A DNA stretch of 54,412 bases from an uncultured Psychroflexus sp. (GTDB lineage Bacteria; Bacteroidota; Bacteroidia; Flavobacteriales; Flavobacteriaceae), in the NCBI GenBank assembly GCA_913056525.1, contig CAJXLO010000004.1, forward strand, positions 1 to 54,412. The letters are read 5' to 3'. Numbering within the stretch: position 1 is the stretch's first letter; every line of letters begins with the position of its first letter. The notes beneath the pieces were generated by a model. The model was given only the letters and a program-made list of their open reading frames with translations, did no database searches and was not told the origin of the DNA. Positions 1,483 through 8,605 of this stretch are shown here, piece by piece. Position numbers and translations under genes: made by a program.

Positions 1483-2025
1483 TTATTCCTTAGATTCTGT
1501 TTTCTTTTCTTCTCCCTTGTTCTCATCCTCTTTGTTCAACATCTCGATAACCTCATCCGTGATATTCTTATTTTTATCGCCATATAATATGTTAGATGAT
1601 TGATTTGACCCGAAGATGTATGTATATCCTTCTTGATCGGCCCATTCTGCCACTTCTTTTTCCATGACCCTGATCAATGAATCGGCTTCTTCTCCCCTTT
1701 TTTGTTGTAAGGACCTTCCTTCCTGGTTTTGCTTCGACCGCAATCGTTGTTGCATTTGTCTTAATTGTTGCTCCTTTTGTTTCCTTTCCTGATCGGACAT
1801 GCTTTCTCGCTTGGCCATATATTCATCATAAAGCTTTTGAAAAGGAGCAGCCAAGGAATCTATTTCTTTTGATAACGCTTCTTGTTTATTGTCGTAGCGT
1901 TTGCGCATATCTTCAAGCTTGTAATACTGTTCTACGACTTTTTGATTGTCAACGTAAGCTGTTTTTTCTTGATTACAGGAAACAATACTGATTCCTATTA
2001 GTAGGAAGAAACTTATTTTTTTCAT
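1483..2025 (-). CDS. OmpH/Skp-family lipoprotein
   Basis: Probable periplasmic chaperone-like protein of the OmpH/Skp family, which in other bacteria escorts outer-membrane proteins. From the ATG at 2025 it has a short basic start (MKKIS), a hydrophobic stretch and a lipobox ending SIVSC (Cys17), so it should be a lipoprotein. The mature part begins with the Skp-like AYVDNQKVVEQY segment and continues as a long charged coiled coil rich in Gln, Lys, Glu and Arg, ending in an acidic-basic tail. An in-frame start at 2043 would add six residues before the signal peptide and is less likely. A good promoter box lies 15 nt upstream. Confidence 0.8.
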   Translation of the reverse strand: MKKISFFLLIGISIVSCNQEKTAYVDNQKVVEQYYKLEDMRKRYDNKQEALSKEIDSLAAPFQKLYDEYMAKRESMSDQERKQKEQQLRQMQQRLRSKQNQEGRSLQQKRGEEADSLIRVMEKEVAEWADQEGYTYIFGSNQSSNILYGDKNKNITDEVIEMLNKEDENKGEEKKTESKE

Positions 2026-2076: not shown

Positions 2077-2895
2077 CTATTTGTCTAATTTTCTAAATAT
2101 AAACAGGTTACTTGAATATTCCTTTGAAGATAACGCTTTAAGGTTAGATAATGACCCAACCTTCAAGGCATTGAATAAACGTTTTTTCCCTTTATAAGAC
2201 TCCGATATGAGGCTAATGTAATAGGCATCTAACGGCATAGGTTTTTCATCCAATAGTTGAAACCCGTTATCCCTGAACAACTGGTGGATACTCTTCTTTG
2301 AGAAATGATACTGATGCCTTGGAACATCGTAAGCGGCCCAATATTCCTGATAGTATCTAGCATCATAAGCTTTGTAGTTCGGTACGGCTACAGCTATTAT
2401 CGCATTTACTTTGGTGATACGCTTCAGGAAAGTGAACCACGCTTGTATATCTAATACATGCTCTATCGCATGAAAGGCACTTACGACATCGAACCTTGTA
2501 TTAGTATCCTGATAACCAGCAATATAAGGTATGTTCTTATTTTTTATCTTTTGAATAGCACCCTTATTTAGCTCAAATGCCATTTTCTCCCAGTATTTAT
2601 CTGGCAAAAAATCCAGAAACTCACCAGTACCAGCTCCAAAGTCAAGCCAATTACCCTTATTTACATACCTGGCAATCCATTTATATTTTCTTGTGAACAT
2701 ATACTGCTTCACGATATTATAAATGAAACTTTTTACATCTTTTGAGTTCTCTTGATGGGAAAGGTATTCAGGCGTATTATAATATTCACCTATTGCTTCA
2801 ATATCCAGCTCAGGTTTTGTTTTGTAATATTCATAATGAGGATCTTTGACTAATTCAAAGGACTCACCTGATAAGAAATGGTCTTTTACTTTCAT
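2077..2895 (-). CDS. Class I SAM-dependent methyltransferase
   Basis: A 272-residue methyltransferase of the Methyltransf_23/UbiG-like type. The SAM-binding motif I LDFGAGTGEF is at about residues 84-93, followed by FDVVSAFHAIEHV (motif IV/V region), typical of enzymes that methylate small molecules or glycans. The substrate is unknown. The ATG at 2895 is chosen because upstream in-frame codons overlap the end of mnmG and translate through the parS palindrome. With this start the gene begins 22 nt after mnmG ends, with the parS site filling that gap, so it is probably co-transcribed with ybeY and mnmG. Confidence 0.75.
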   Translation of the reverse strand: MKVKDHFLSGESFELVKDPHYEYYKTKPELDIEAIGEYYNTPEYLSHQENSKDVKSFIYNIVKQYMFTRKYKWIARYVNKGNWLDFGAGTGEFLDFLPDKYWEKMAFELNKGAIQKIKNKNIPYIAGYQDTNTRFDVVSAFHAIEHVLDIQAWFTFLKRITKVNAIIAVAVPNYKAYDARYYQEYWAAYDVPRHQYHFSKKSIHQLFRDNGFQLLDEKPMPLDAYYISLISESYKGKKRLFNALKVGSLSNLKALSSKEYSSNLFIFRKLDK

Positions 2896-2901
2896 AGTAA
2901 T

Positions 2902-2917
2902 TGTTCCACGTGGAACA
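2902..2917. promoter_or_regulatory. parS-like ParB-binding palindrome, copy 1
   Basis: TGTTCCACGTGGAACA, a perfect 16-bp inverted repeat that fits the chromosomal parS consensus TGTTNCACGTGAAACA, apart from the symmetric G. It abuts the mnmG stop codon (2918-2920) and lies 6 nt before the methyltransferase start codon. A second identical copy lies 1.9 kb away at 4808-4823. Confidence 0.85.
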
Positions 2918-4792
2918 TTATCTTCCCATGTGAACAAGGAGCACAGAGATATCCGTAGGGTCAACACCGCTTACTCTTGAAGCTTGAGAAACGGTTTCAG
3001 GTTTAATTTTAGTTAATTTCTCTCTTGCCTCAAGAGACATTGACTGTAATTTATCATAGTTAAAATTGCTCGGTATTTTTAGGTCCTCTAATCTGTTTAG
3101 TTTATCTGCATGTTCTTTCTCTCTCTTGATATAACCTTCATATTTGATTTCTATTTCAGCTCTCTCGACTTCTTCTCTGGTGCAGTTGTTATCCTTTATA
3201 TATCGATTAAGGTCATCCACCTTTGATATATCCTTGTAATGGACATTAGGTCTTGTAAGGATCTTCCCAAGTTTCCCTTTCTGTTTAACAGGTGATGAGC
3301 CCTTTTGTTCTAATATAGGATTAATTTCCTTAGGCTCCACGGATAATCGATGGATAAAAGTCTTCAACTGGTCCGCTTTTTTAACCTTTTCTTCTACTTT
3401 TTTCATTCTTTGTTCAGAAGCAAAACCTATCCTATAAGAAAGCTCTGTCAGTCTTTCATCTGCGTTATCTTGTCGTAACAAAGTCCTGTATTCTGCCCTA
3501 GAAGTAAACATCCGGTAAGGTTCTTTCGTTCCTTTTGTGATGAGGTCATCTATCAATACACCGATATATGCTTCATTCCTTCTCAGCAAGAAAGGTTCAG
3601 CCTCTCTTGTTTGCAGCGCTGCGTTAATACCCGCTATCAGTCCCTGACAAGCGGCTTCTTCATATCCTGTTGTACCATTGATCTGCCCTGCAAAATAAAG
3701 TCCATCCACAAGTTTAGTTTCTAGACTATGTTTGAGTTGGGTTGGGGCAAAAAAGTCATATTCTATTGCATAACCTGGTCTAAAGAATCGAACATTCTCA
3801 AAACCCTTGACCTTTTTCAAAGCTTCAAATTGTATGTCTTCTGGAAGGGATGTTGCAAATCCGTTCACATAATACTCTACAGTATTCCATCCTTCGGGTT
3901 CAATGAACATCTGATGCCTTTCTTTGTCAGCAAACCTGTGTATCTTGTCTTCAACACTAGGACAATATCTTGGACCAATACTTTTTATTCGTCCATTGAA
4001 CATCGGCGAACGGTCAAAACCAGCCCTTAAGGTATCATGAACTTCAGGCGAAGTATAGGTGATGTAACAAGACCTTTGATTTTCCTCTAAATGGGTCCTT
4101 GTTTTAAGGAAGGAAAAGCATCTTGGGTCTGGATCTCCTTCTTGCTCGGTCATTTTTGAAAAGTCCAGCGATCTACCATCTACCCTTGGTGGCGTCCCTG
4201 TTTTCATTCTTCCGGTTTCGAACCCAAGCTCTTCCAGGTCTTTTGTGATACCGGTAGATGCTCTTTCTCCAGATCTTCCACCGCCAAAGTTCTTTTCACC
4301 AATATGGATCAAGCCGTTCAGGAAAGTACCATTGGTCAGAACTACTGCTTTGGATTTGATAAAAAGGCCTAAGGAAGTTTTCACGCCTTGAATACGCCCA
4401 TTCTTGACAACTACATTCGAAACCATTTCCTGATAAAATTCCAATTGAGGTATTTCTTCCAGTCTCTTTCGCCACTCTAGCGTAAATAGCATGCGGTCGC
4501 TTTGTACTCTTGGGCTCCACATTGCTGGTCCTTTTGACTTGTTCAGCATCCTGAATTGGATAGCGGTCTTATCTGATATTTCACCGCTTAATCCACCTAA
4601 AGCATCTATTTCCCTCAGTAGTTGTCCTTTTGCGATTCCACCCATGGCGGGATTGCAGGACATTTGCCCCAAATTTTGTAGGTTCATGGTCACTAATAGT
4701 GTTTTGTGACCCATGTTCGCACTTGCCGCAGCTGCTTCACAACCAGCATGACCGCCGCCTACAACAACTACATCAAATTCTTCATTAAACAT
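2918..4792 (-). CDS. mnmG: tRNA uridine-34 carboxymethylaminomethyl synthesis enzyme MnmG (GidA)
   Basis: FAD-dependent enzyme that acts with MnmE to build the cmnm5 group on wobble U34 of several tRNAs. The 624-residue length is normal. The N-terminal FAD dinucleotide fold VVVVGGGHAGCEAA lies at about residues 8-21. The family signatures CNPAMGGIAKGQ (about 46-57) and GPRYCPSVEDK (mid-protein) are intact, and the C-terminal helical tRNA/MnmE-interaction domain ends in ISVLLVHMGR. The ATG at 4792 fits the family start MFNEEFDVVVVG. It lies 5 nt downstream of ybeY and is flanked on both sides by parS-like sites, a placement that recalls the origin-proximal gidA locus of many bacteria. Confidence 0.97.
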   Translation of the reverse strand: MFNEEFDVVVVGGGHAGCEAAAASANMGHKTLLVTMNLQNLGQMSCNPAMGGIAKGQLLREIDALGGLSGEISDKTAIQFRMLNKSKGPAMWSPRVQSDRMLFTLEWRKRLEEIPQLEFYQEMVSNVVVKNGRIQGVKTSLGLFIKSKAVVLTNGTFLNGLIHIGEKNFGGGRSGERASTGITKDLEELGFETGRMKTGTPPRVDGRSLDFSKMTEQEGDPDPRCFSFLKTRTHLEENQRSCYITYTSPEVHDTLRAGFDRSPMFNGRIKSIGPRYCPSVEDKIHRFADKERHQMFIEPEGWNTVEYYVNGFATSLPEDIQFEALKKVKGFENVRFFRPGYAIEYDFFAPTQLKHSLETKLVDGLYFAGQINGTTGYEEAACQGLIAGINAALQTREAEPFLLRRNEAYIGVLIDDLITKGTKEPYRMFTSRAEYRTLLRQDNADERLTELSYRIGFASEQRMKKVEEKVKKADQLKTFIHRLSVEPKEINPILEQKGSSPVKQKGKLGKILTRPNVHYKDISKVDDLNRYIKDNNCTREEVERAEIEIKYEGYIKREKEHADKLNRLEDLKIPSNFNYDKLQSMSLEAREKLTKIKPETVSQASRVSGVDPTDISVLLVHMGR

Positions 4793-4797
4793 ATACT

Positions 4798-5229
4798 TTA
4801 AATTTTATGTTCCACGTGGAACAATTTTAAACATTCATCTTCTTTTTTTCGCATTTGCTCTTTTTCTTCCTGGGTTTTATCCTTATGGCCTAAACAGTGT
4901 AAGACACCATGCACCATCACTCGTCGCATTTCTTCTTCATAAGGAAGGCTACGCTCATCGGCATTATCCAGAACTCTTTCCTTGCTTATACAAATTTCTG
5001 CCGATACCTGACGATCTTCTGTATAATCAAAAGTGATGATATCTGTATAGTCATTATGTCCCAGGAACTTGATGTTGATCTCGTTTAACTTTTCATCGCT
5101 CATGAACTGATAGGTCAAATTACCGACATTCATATTCTGGCGTTTGACCACCCTTAGGATCCACATTTGGATTTTCTCAATCCTTCTTAGGCCATGGTCT
5201 CCAATTAGATCTATTCTATTCTCGGTCAA
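4798..5229 (-). CDS. ybeY: Endoribonuclease YbeY (rRNA maturation factor)
   Basis: Zinc-dependent endoribonuclease used in 16S rRNA 3-prime maturation and ribosome quality control. The 143-residue protein carries the signature HGVLHCLGHKDK, with H107 and H111 as two metal ligands. The third position is Asp117 rather than the His of the E. coli motif; I believe this is the usual Bacteroidota form. The start overlaps the end of the DUF4175 gene by 14 nt, indicating translational coupling. The last codons (Phe-His-Val-Glu-His) are spelled by a parS-like palindrome at 4808-4823, so the C-terminus is constrained by DNA as well as by protein function. Confidence 0.92.
   Translation of the reverse strand: MTENRIDLIGDHGLRRIEKIQMWILRVVKRQNMNVGNLTYQFMSDEKLNEINIKFLGHNDYTDIITFDYTEDRQVSAEICISKERVLDNADERSLPYEEEMRRVMVHGVLHCLGHKDKTQEEKEQMRKKEDECLKLFHVEHKI
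4808..4823. promoter_or_regulatory. parS-like ParB-binding palindrome, copy 2
   Basis: TGTTCCACGTGGAACA, identical to the copy at 2902-2917. It lies inside the last codons of ybeY and 15 nt upstream of the mnmG start. Together the two copies frame mnmG exactly. Confidence 0.85.
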
Positions 5230-8200
5230 AATAACGTTTGATAAGGGATTGATATTTAATTTGCAAAGGTAAGTTTTGTCTATTCAAAATTTCAACCCTT
5301 TTAAAATAATCTTTTGCCTGATCGATCTGTTCTTTGGACCTGTTAGAGAACGTTTTCTTATTTGTGGTGGATCGTCTTTTATTGCTCATGTTCTGCTTTT
5401 GAGCAGCATCCTTGAGTTTGAGCAACTCGTGTTTTATCTGTTCCATCCTCTTTAAAGAAGCATTGCTAAACCCTTTCATCAATAGTTCTTTTTCCAACTG
5501 TTCCATCGATTTTTCCAGCTTACCACTGTCATCTTCCAGACCTTGCTGTTTTATAAGGTCCTTTAACTGGTTTTTGAGCATCTGTTGTTTTTTGTAAACC
5601 TCATAAAGCTCTCTTTTCTCGCTCTCCGTATTCCCTTTTTTGTTTCCTTTACCGTTCTGTTGGCCTTTACCTTTGTTTCCTCCTTTTTCTCCCGCATTTT
5701 TTCCGTTTTTTCCTTGCTTTCCTTTTTGGGATGGTCTATTCCCTTTCTTCATCCCCTTTTTCATTTGCCTGGCCAACTCTTCCTGGGATTTTATGATATC
5801 TGATAACTGAAAACCTTTTCCTTTTCCCTGACCTTTTCCCTGACCTTTACCTTGAGCTCCCTTGCCACTCCCTTTGCCTAGCATCTGTTGCATTTGGTCT
5901 AATGAGTTGTCTAACATATTGGCCAGATCATTGGCATATTTCATAGCGAACTGTTGCTTTGAGGTGCCAACCCTTATCTGATTATCTGCTAATTTTTCCA
6001 GGGATTTGTCAATATTATAATCTACTTCAGTGATCTTATCGGTTATTTTCTGACCTATCATGGGGTTTCGCATAGCAAGCGCAAATAGACTATCATCCAC
6101 ATGTTTGAAATTTTCCTTTAGTGTAGCTTGTTTGTTCAGATATTCCCCAAAATTAGGACTTTGATCATTGATAGACCTGAACTTTTCCATTAGGGTTTCT
6201 TGCTCTTTTGAGTAAACGAGCAGATTTTGAAGGATTCTTCTGAGCATTTCTGCATCTTCCCGGGCTTGCTGTTGACTTGCCATCTGCATCATGCTGTTCA
6301 TCTTCTGGCTCATTTCTTTCATTTTCCTGGCTGCGTTCTCTTGGCTTTGTTTTGCGTCTTCTTCACTTTGTTGCTGTTGCTTCTTTGAACTTGACTGCTC
6401 GCTTTTTTCCAGGCTTTGTTTTGCCTCCTTTTGTTCTTTTTTTACGGACTTCTTTTCCTCTCTGTTGTCAGGAATAGGATAAGGTTCTTTTAGTTTTTTA
6501 TTTTCCTTCTGTAAGCTGTCAAGTTCTTTGGATACTTTATCAAAACTCTTGTTAAGGGAATCTTGTGAAAGGGATTCTTTTTCTCTCTTTTTATCAGCCA
6601 GTTCTTTTTGTTCTTTAGCTAATCTCTCAAGTTCTTTAGTGATTTTCCGCGTCTTTTCTTCAACGTAGTATCGTTTGGTCAACTCCAGGATCTCCTCAAG
6701 GTTCCTTTTTTGCTTTTCCGTTTCCTTTTCGTATTCTTCCAGGTCTTTTTGAAGGTCTTCATCCTCTAATTTTTTATTATACTTATTGAGTTGTTCTAAA
6801 AGATCCTTATTCTTTTTAATATTATCTTCGTTGGACTCTAACCTTTTTAGGAGGTCTTTCTTCTTCGGGTCTTTCTGACGGTCATTTTGCTTATTAAGGT
6901 CTTCTTTTATCGATTTGTTAAACCTTTCCATGAGTTCTTGTTGTTGCTTTTGGCGCTTGATAAAATCCTGGATTCTCTTTTTATCCGCATAATCCAATTT
7001 ATTTTTTTCTCGCTGTATCTTTTTTAGTTCTTCAAGATTTGACTCATTCTTCTTAAGTTCTTTCAGGTTCTTTTCCATATTTTCAATGCTCTCACTTTGT
7101 CGCTGCAGCTGTTCTTCCTTTTGCTCTTCACGGGTTTTTTTTCTAAAGAAATAGGTAGATGAACGCGTTGATTTATAACCATTTACGCCATCATTGTCCA
7201 ACGTCTTAAAATAATATCCATAAGTTTCACCTTCAAGCAAGTCTAGCCGTTCATTCGGGAAGGTATAATAAAACTGGGCAAATGTTGCCCGAGGTTTTTT
7301 AAGAACGATACGCTTTCCCTTTTTCTCATTATCTACTGGATAGTAAACTATGCTTATACGGCTTATTCCGTAATCATCACTGACAGTTCCTGAGAAATAC
7401 TTCTTATCGGCATCTAAACTATCCTTTTTCATTTGTATATTTATTTCAGGAAGTTCATCTTTTATCACCTGGATGGAATAATCCAATCTGTCATAATCCT
7501 TTAAGAACTGGTTTGAAGAACTTATCACATAGCGTGAAGAGCTAAAGAGCTTTTTACTGAACGCAAAACGCTTATTTTCTCTTTTGAACTCATAGACGGA
7601 GTCGTTCAATTCTATACTTAACTGTTCTGCGGCGGTCGTATTGACCAGCCAGGTCAAATTCGTTCCCTCGGGTATTTCTATATTGCCGGTCCCATCCACT
7701 TGTTTATCGCTCATTCCGGTATGTTCAGGTATGTCGGCCATTAATTTGATATTGTCTATCCTAGGCACGCTGAGCACCTTTATATCATAGTTCTTTGACC
7801 TTACCTTATTCGCACTCAAATAGAATGACCGCGATTCTCTAAGGTGCTCAATATCAAAATGGAAGCTGTTTTTATCCTTACTTCTCATCAGGAACGAGCG
7901 TCCATTGTCCATGTGGATCTTCATCGATTTGGGGCTTACATCGCCTACGGTCTTTGCTTTAACGGTAAAGGTACCTTGATCGGTTGTAACTAAACTGTCG
8001 TTCAACACTTTGATGTCGAATGGAGCAGGCGGCTCGTAAGCCTGCCTGTAATTGACAACGCGCTCATAACTATCCGTAAAAAGTTCATATTTACCGGTAA
8101 GTGCGATCAATAACATTATCAATATAGGGAAAAAGGCATATTTGAGATAAGGAATGTTCGACCGAAAATCTATAGCGTTTTGGAACGGTACAGGTTTTAT

Positions 8201-8605
8201 CTCTGCAGCTTTCTGCTCGATGCCTTTGAGGACAAGGTCGGAATCCTGCTGCATCGACCTTAATTGCAATATGTTAGTAAGCCGATCATTTACTTCTGGG
8301 AAAGACCGGCCTATCATCTTAGAGGCATATTCATGGTCGATACCTTTAGTGATCTTGAAAAGCTTTGTGGCCGGATATATAATGAACTTGCTGAAAAGGG
8401 ATATTTCCACTAAAATAAAAGCCCAAAAAAGGATCTCTCGGAAGAACGGCGAAAGCCAGAGAAAATATTCAAGGGTCAATATGATGATGAAGTACAGTAA
8501 CCCTGTAGCGAGGAATAATATTCCTCCTTTGATAAGTTCGTTATAGTAGTATTTTTTTATAAATTGCTCCAGTTTCTTTTCTATCAGTTCATATTGCTGC
8601 ATCAT
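5216..8605 (-). CDS. DUF4175-family giant membrane coiled-coil protein
   Basis: A 1129-residue protein of the Bacteroidota DUF4175 family; its biochemical function is not known to me. The N-terminus has two adjacent membrane helices (about residues 27-80) and a third at about 150-170. A beta-rich extracytoplasmic region of roughly 300 residues follows, with Ig-like character and a segment ending YGYYFKTLDNDGVNG. Then comes a very long charged coiled coil (about 490-790), a Gln/Ser-rich patch, a helical stretch, a Gly-Lys-Gln-rich low-complexity region (about 915-1010) and a basic tail. The layout suggests an envelope-spanning scaffold. It overlaps ybeY by 14 nt and heads the DUF4175-ybeY-mnmG-methyltransferase run. 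It diverges from rsmI. Confidence 0.8.
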   Translation of the reverse strand: MMQQYELIEKKLEQFIKKYYYNELIKGGILFLATGLLYFIIILTLEYFLWLSPFFREILFWAFILVEISLFSKFIIYPATKLFKITKGIDHEYASKMIGRSFPEVNDRLTNILQLRSMQQDSDLVLKGIEQKAAEIKPVPFQNAIDFRSNIPYLKYAFFPILIMLLIALTGKYELFTDSYERVVNYRQAYEPPAPFDIKVLNDSLVTTDQGTFTVKAKTVGDVSPKSMKIHMDNGRSFLMRSKDKNSFHFDIEHLRESRSFYLSANKVRSKNYDIKVLSVPRIDNIKLMADIPEHTGMSDKQVDGTGNIEIPEGTNLTWLVNTTAAEQLSIELNDSVYEFKRENKRFAFSKKLFSSSRYVISSSNQFLKDYDRLDYSIQVIKDELPEINIQMKKDSLDADKKYFSGTVSDDYGISRISIVYYPVDNEKKGKRIVLKKPRATFAQFYYTFPNERLDLLEGETYGYYFKTLDNDGVNGYKSTRSSTYFFRKKTREEQKEEQLQRQSESIENMEKNLKELKKNESNLEELKKIQREKNKLDYADKKRIQDFIKRQKQQQELMERFNKSIKEDLNKQNDRQKDPKKKDLLKRLESNEDNIKKNKDLLEQLNKYNKKLEDEDLQKDLEEYEKETEKQKRNLEEILELTKRYYVEEKTRKITKELERLAKEQKELADKKREKESLSQDSLNKSFDKVSKELDSLQKENKKLKEPYPIPDNREEKKSVKKEQKEAKQSLEKSEQSSSKKQQQQSEEDAKQSQENAARKMKEMSQKMNSMMQMASQQQAREDAEMLRRILQNLLVYSKEQETLMEKFRSINDQSPNFGEYLNKQATLKENFKHVDDSLFALAMRNPMIGQKITDKITEVDYNIDKSLEKLADNQIRVGTSKQQFAMKYANDLANMLDNSLDQMQQMLGKGSGKGAQGKGQGKGQGKGKGFQLSDIIKSQEELARQMKKGMKKGNRPSQKGKQGKNGKNAGEKGGNKGKGQQNGKGNKKGNTESEKRELYEVYKKQQMLKNQLKDLIKQQGLEDDSGKLEKSMEQLEKELLMKGFSNASLKRMEQIKHELLKLKDAAQKQNMSNKRRSTTNKKTFSNRSKEQIDQAKDYFKRVEILNRQNLPLQIKYQSLIKRYFDRE
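5820..5855 (-). repeat. 12-bp tandem repeat encoding Gly-Lys-Gly-Gln units
   Basis: Two perfect copies of CCTTTTCCCTGA (5820-5831, 5832-5843) followed by a third copy with two changes (5844-5855). On the coding strand they spell successive GKGQ units in the low-complexity part of the DUF4175 protein. This is the kind of repeat that expands or contracts by slippage without breaking the frame. Confidence 0.75.

Follow-up and report, generated by a model that had tools for sequence, protein, structure and literature searches.

A probable two-site parS centromere brackets mnmG in an uncultured Psychroflexus and in many of its Bacteroidota relatives

The first 54,412 nucleotides of contig CAJXLO010000004.1 (assembly GCA_913056525.1), from an uncultured Psychroflexus species of the Flavobacteriaceae and referred to here as the window, carry a perfect 16-bp palindrome on each side of mnmG, the gene of a tRNA uridine modification enzyme. 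The two palindromes are very probably a chromosomal parS centromere, i.e. a two-site zone at which the ParB protein of a canonical ParABS segregation system would load. The parS reading, proposed in a first-pass annotation, is supported because the sites agree with the parS consensus, the genome encodes a parA-parB pair, the location at mnmG is nearly exclusive in close relatives, the codons that overlap one site are constrained, and the locus is close to the origin in relatives with usable skew. Although the kind of system is already known, what appears to be new is its repeated association with mnmG in many Bacteroidota, the way its overlap with ybeY fixes codons, and its occurrence where neither SMC nor ScpB is detected; parS sites bracketing mnmG in Bacteroidota were not described among the titles and abstract openings of the literature searched.

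Both palindromes are exact copies of TGTTCCACGTGGAACA at the positions given by the first-pass annotation (Table 1), and its remark that the window holds no further exact copy can be extended, since none is found even within 3 mismatches. They agree with the parS consensus TGTTNCACGTGNAACA, as had been claimed, and are of the parS type and not of the Noc binding site (NBS) type. The downstream site directly adjoins the stop codon of mnmG (2918-2920), and 6 bp separate it from the likely start codon of a methyltransferase gene (2893-2895). Between the upstream site and the start codon of mnmG there is a gap of 15 bp. The sites thus lie on both sides of mnmG as first described, with the refinement that the upstream one is not intergenic: it is coding DNA of the adjacent ybeY gene, whose minus-strand codons TTC CAC GTG GAA (4810-4821) specify the residues F-H-V-E.

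The genome from which the window comes (G000) is assembled in 93 contigs totaling 1,971,519 bases at a completeness of 80.03, and further copies may lie in the missing fifth or so. In this assembly the exact 16-mer occurs only at the two positions flanking mnmG, and a scan allowing one mismatch to the parS consensus, close to the one that the first-pass annotation had proposed for the 16-mer, returned the mnmG pair only; two further sites with 2 mismatches are on other contigs. That annotation had also considered that a ParB gene might be lacking; however, adjacent parA and parB genes are present. The genome has one ParB_N match (119 bits), encoded on a different contig than the sites, and the same protein matches HTH_ParB (127.9 bits), ParB_C (30.9 bits) and TIGR00180 (174.9 bits), while its score against the Noc model TIGR04285 (243 bits) is below the cut-off of 315. 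It matches 13 distinct solved sequences at E <= 1e-10, named ParB, Spo0J, Noc and, in one case, KorB. The gene directly upstream encodes a 254-residue ATPase (AAA_31, 223.8 bits) that is matched by ParA and Soj structures in a sequence search; among the 25 listed of 29 NCBIfam models none was over its cut-off for this protein.

The residues that would contact parS can be compared with those set out in the accessible portion of PMC7383237, whose numbering is used here; positions were counted by hand along the helix-turn-helix from the GKxR motif, without alignment to the Caulobacter ParB. Seven of the eight contacting positions are identical (Q162, G170, K171, R173, N178, G201 and R204), S172 being replaced by K. 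The specificity residues, R at 173 and G at 201, are those of the parS type, which the same portion of that paper gives as absolutely conserved in ParB orthologues, and not the Q173/R201 pair of the Noc type; Y at 179 and R at 184 occupy positions described there as variable among ParBs.

The arrangement extends well beyond the one genome. The exact 16-mer is present in 56 of 100 genomes searched (the window's own included), and a reversed control pattern without mismatches in none of them. Zero-mismatch matches to the degenerate consensus are found in 26 of the 27 same-genus genomes, the exception being 52% complete and without an mnmG match. A flanking site was then defined by at most 1 mismatch to TGTTNCACGTGNAACA, an intact ACGT center and a position within 160 bp of mnmG. 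Within the genus (own genome included) both sides are occupied in 25 of 26 loci; in the 26th an upstream site is present and the contig ends inside mnmG, so that all 25 loci whose downstream flank is available have a downstream site within 1 mismatch. Among 33 loci of the family outside the genus, 22 have both sites, 8 only the upstream site, 1 an upstream site with a truncated flank and 2 none; among 32 loci of the order outside the family (those of 36 genomes with an mnmG match, G081, G085, G096 and G097 being left out) the corresponding figures are 15 with both, 6 downstream only, 3 upstream only and 8 with none.

Eighty loci from named Bacteroidota were retrieved by peptide patterns of the window's MnmG, and are not a random sample of the phylum; 7 have both sites, 34 an upstream site (1 with a truncated flank), 8 a downstream site and 31 none (1 with a truncated flank), although in three of these last (L226, L228 and L256) a site is found 217-367 bp away. 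The nearest named relatives of the window's MnmG are from an unclassified Bacteroidia genome (72%) and from Flavobacterium, Lutibacter, Tenacibaculum and Polaribacter (67-69%), in keeping with a place in the Flavobacteriaceae and the Flavobacteriales. The named loci were grouped by record title and taxonomy after their table had been seen. Flavobacteriales (12 loci) show 7 with both sites, 2 upstream and 3 none; the upstream site alone is found in 14 of 14 Cytophagales other than Hymenobacter and Solirubrum, in 8 of 8 Sphingobacteriales and in 4 of 7 Chitinophagales (3 none), and Bacteroidales have the downstream site alone in 8 of 10 (2 none). Unplaced loci are divided evenly (6 upstream, 6 none). 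No parS-like site within 160 bp of mnmG was found in the 14 Saprospirales loci (L187, L188, L190, L191, L193, L195, L204, L210-L212 and L214-L217, with L204 lacking a downstream flank) or in the three of Hymenobacter and Solirubrum (L221, L235 and L245). Two Chitinophaga loci have several consensus sites extending from mnmG out to about 2.4 kb (L199) or 1.3 kb (L201), a cluster larger than the window's pair. At another locus (G020:C48:266032-267878) the mnmG match falls in two overlapping pieces with in-frame stops, possibly because of a frameshift or an assembly error, and both parS sites are kept.

The sites are also nearly confined to this location. Copies scattered over the genome, a second possibility raised in the first-pass annotation, are not what is seen: a set of 14 genomes of the window's order (the own genome and 13 one-contig relatives) contains 24 zero-mismatch sites, of which 21 are at mnmG. 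Of 8 one-mismatch sites in the same set 4 are at mnmG, and those elsewhere are at background level, because the reversed control pattern gave 9 matches at up to 1 mismatch. The flank definition applied to 2.0 Mb of evenly spaced samples from five genomes returned no site, and in the named loci the 123,539 bases that lie no more than 800 bp from mnmG hold 91 matches, versus 11 in the 1,195,677 bases further out.

The three remaining zero-mismatch sites are all in one genome, G049, and this exception bears on the best of the rival explanations, namely that the palindromes are a transcription-factor operator, or that the chief role of ParB at this locus is to regulate mnmG and the methyltransferase gene locally. 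The first-pass annotation had likewise suggested that bound ParB could affect expression of these two genes. One site does lie just upstream of each of these genes, and in P. aeruginosa raised ParB levels potentiate repression of the promoters adjoining parS3 and parS4, according to the available part of PMC5521831. In G049, however, the three sites, at 997-999 kb (L341), surround a homolog of the window's methyltransferase (39.6% identity over 273 residues) and adjoin a homolog of its OmpH-like protein (29.9%), whereas mnmG (L011), at 1,277 kb, is separated from them by about 278 kb and lacks any site within 800 bp. This is most simply read as mnmG having moved away while the parS sites stayed put. 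The case argues against regulation of mnmG as the main function of the sites, although their place in G049 stays compatible with regulation of the methyltransferase gene. A regulon would, moreover, be expected to have members elsewhere, but only 1 of the 14 genomes has any zero-mismatch site that is not at mnmG, and the upstream site of the genus is within ybeY coding DNA. A primarily regulatory role is accordingly very unlikely.

Overlap with ybeY provides a separate line of evidence for constraint on the DNA itself. In all 26 loci of the genus the upstream frame is a YbeY homolog that runs through the site and encodes FHVE, and the same four codons are used throughout, i.e. one of 32 possible combinations. 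Of 378 degenerate columns that are invariant in amino acid (33 in YbeY from 26 loci, 345 in MnmG from 25 loci), only the four of FHVE use a single codon; the other 374 vary. Among the 65 loci outside the genus the site falls within the YbeY frame in 14 by the rule of the script (in L116 in another reading frame), the upstream frame ends before the site in 33 (within it in L110), an upstream site is lacking in 16 and an upstream frame in 2. Of the 33 early-ending frames 31 are YbeY homologs (L109 and L122 are not), and the parS-like palindrome is still present. The overlap with the tail of YbeY offers a clean case of a centromere constraining codons.

Two further rivals are scarcely credible in the light of these comparisons. 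The palindromes might function in RNA, forming hairpins close to the end of mnmG and the start of the methyltransferase gene, since each is a perfect inverted repeat adjoining a start or stop codon. However, a search of the window against Rfam gave no match, and the two variable palindrome positions (C/G 145, C/A 30, T/G 30, T/A 22 and A/G 1) include as many half-changed variants of the C-A mismatch form as of the U-G wobble form in the sense of mnmG, 30 each, counted over related sequences that are not independent events; pairing in RNA would favor the wobble, and the equal counts therefore speak against a hairpin. Equally improbable is that the upstream site is kept for the FHVE peptide and not for its DNA. 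The peptide is indeed present in all 26 same-genus YbeY proteins, but neither the single codon combination among 32, set against 374 varying columns, nor the 31 loci outside the genus in which the YbeY frame stops at or short of the palindrome would be expected from selection on protein. Chance or a repeat artefact is very unlikely, as in 100 dinucleotide shuffles of the window matches with up to 3 mismatches averaged 0.12 and never numbered two or more, and the exact 16-mer is in 56 genomes while the reversed control is in none.

The first-pass annotation also suggested that the window is close to the replication origin, and the own genome being in 93 contigs, this can be approached through relatives. 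For each genome, GC skew at third codon positions was taken from the genes in twenty 20-kb samples, and a two-replichore model was fitted to it on a 6-degree grid. The leading strand is assumed to be G-rich; if it were C-rich instead, the fitted origin and terminus would be exchanged. In two genomes of the window's family the fitted origin is close to mnmG: 2 degrees away in G058 (R2 0.47) and 8 degrees in G047 (R2 0.68), with 0 of 30 shuffles as good and a fraction of 0.97 of bootstraps within 45 degrees in each. In a 400-kb stretch of G047, cumulative GC skew bottoms out in a plateau spanning about 1.155-1.245 Mb (minimum at 1.234 Mb), and the best break by genes falls at 1.135 Mb; mnmG, at 1.165 Mb, is flanked by the only pair of consensus sites in that stretch. 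The dnaA gene is 132-171 degrees from the fitted origin in G019, G025, G047 and G058 (3 degrees in G009, where the fit is non-significant), and in four of the five genomes fitted its distance to mnmG is 118-171 degrees; parB is 76-160 degrees from the fitted origin in the five. The mnmG flank may point to the origin better than dnaA does. The records of G019, G040 and G071 begin at dnaA, and the start coordinate of G019 is probably far from its origin. Two other approaches were set aside. An origin at the cumulative GC-skew minimum of the window (27.7 kb) was rejected, because third-codon-position skew has no switch there and the minimum reflects gene direction; simple GC skew of the 20-kb samples from G009 and G025 likewise tracked gene direction, and the strand-corrected fit was used instead.

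A number of observations weigh against an origin-proximal centromere at mnmG. In the three genomes of the window's own genus the fits are poorer: 25 degrees from mnmG in G019 (R2 0.25, 0 of 30 shuffles as good, bootstraps within 45 degrees 0.83), 53 degrees in G025 (R2 0.15, 0 of 30, 0.47) and a non-significant 30 degrees in G009 (R2 0.095, 3 of 30, 0.53). No cluster of DnaA boxes was found in the window or in the 400 kb of G047, no 500 bp holding more than 3. Nor is the arrangement universal, in that no site lies within 160 bp of mnmG in 2 of 33 loci of the family, 8 of 32 of the order and 31 of 80 named loci, and G071 has no site within 1 mismatch anywhere in its genome, though a ParB gene is present. 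The fits put the origin close to mnmG in G058 and G047, less closely in G019 and weakly in G025, that of G009 being non-significant, and as judged from these relatives the sites of the window probably lie near the replication origin.

The usual partner of ParABS was looked for by way of SMC and ScpB, the search not covering ScpA or MukB/MksB. In the 14-genome set no match to SMC_prok_B (TIGR02168) was over the cut-off, versus matches over it in 10 of 14 control genomes, although weaker matches occur in all 14 of the set; ScpB (PF04079) was found in none of the 14 (the own genome being 80% complete) versus 11 of 14 for the controls. SMC_N gave 16 matches over the cut-off in 6 of the genomes, 12 of them in open frames that are 365-376 or 550-564 residues long, as RecF and RecN are, and 4 in frames of 601-970 residues. 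ParA and ParB in the own genome, and ParB in 13 of 13 one-contig relatives, are thus present despite the lack of an over-cut-off SMC and of ScpB. With two defined sites and neither partner detected, the locus could be a simple system for the study of ParABS without its usual companion. No known condensin was found in two gut Bacteroidetes studied by Hi-C, as reported in the available part of PMC10197239.

By analogy with the known family, the putative parS sites would each be recognized by a dimer of ParB, which is encoded with ParA elsewhere on the chromosome. ParB would close at the site into a CTP-dependent clamp, and clamps would slide into the flanking DNA, over mnmG and its neighbors. 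ParA would then carry the ParB-coated regions apart shortly after they are replicated, given the probable position of the locus near the origin. More speculatively, and with considerable doubt, the centromere of the Flavobacteriales could be a module of two sites whose spacing, nearly constant at about 1.9 kb, is set by mnmG; it would be locked in place by the YbeY frame and the mnmG stop region and would work without SMC-ScpAB. The two loading points might act together, e.g. by clamps filling the mnmG segment, with the origin handed to ParA alone or to an unknown condensin. In practice, the sites offer a handle on chromosome segregation from sequence alone in a phylum where that process has been little studied, and in which the mnmG flank is a good first place to seek the centromere.

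The coordinates of the sites and of the adjoining genes are collected in Table 1. The minus-strand gene order around the sites (DUF4175 protein, ybeY, mnmG, Methyltransf_23 methyltransferase, OmpH-like protein) is the same in G047, which belongs to another genus, with syntenic OmpH-like and DUF4175 neighbors.

Table 1. Candidate parS sites and neighboring genes in the window
Feature	Position	Strand	Remarks
parS site 1 (downstream of mnmG)	2902..2917	.	perfect 16-bp palindrome between mnmG stop and methyltransferase start
parS site 2 (upstream of mnmG)	4808..4823	.	perfect 16-bp palindrome within final ybeY codons
mnmG (gidA), tRNA uridine-5-carboxymethylaminomethyl(34) synthesis enzyme	2918..4792	-	TIGR00136, 834.7 bits; sites on both sides
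ybeY, rRNA maturation RNase	4798..5229	-	TIGR00043, 85.5 bits; PF02130, 79.2 bits; start codon from mechanical listing
SAM-dependent methyltransferase (Methyltransf_23)	2077..2895	-	PF13489, 78.3 bits
OmpH/Skp-like protein, adjoining locus	1483..2025	-	PF03938, 95.8 bits
DUF4175 protein, upstream of ybeY	5216..8605	-	PF13779, 28.3 bits vs cut-off 27.3

The putative centromere shares features with several characterized systems. The chromosomal parS of P. putida and P. aeruginosa is the same 16-bp palindrome as the sites of the window, an identity that for P. putida can be read from Table 1 of PMC7022226, in the part of that paper available. The parA-parB pair and, in some relatives of the window's genome, the origin-proximal placement are also as in Pseudomonas; unlike there, only two sites are found here, bracketing mnmG, and parB and dnaA are far from the sites in most of the one-contig relatives sampled. 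In B. subtilis one parS is inside the spo0J coding sequence, just as one site of the window is inside ybeY. The B. subtilis Spo0J-parS system, which works with SMC-ScpAB, has the ParB family and the consensus TGTTNCACGTGAAACA in common with the window (PMC7022226, same part), but differs in that no over-cut-off SMC (0/14) and no ScpB (0/14) were found in the window's set. Finally, Hi-C of Bacteroides caecimuris and other gut species shows that parS clusters found by consensus help to mark an origin that is not always coincident with dnaA, as far as the accessible text of PMC10197239 goes. That text mentions neither mnmG nor parS overlapping a coding sequence, although no search for mnmG was made in it; B. 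caecimuris belongs to the Bacteroidales, the order in which 8 of 10 named loci have a site at mnmG on the downstream side only.

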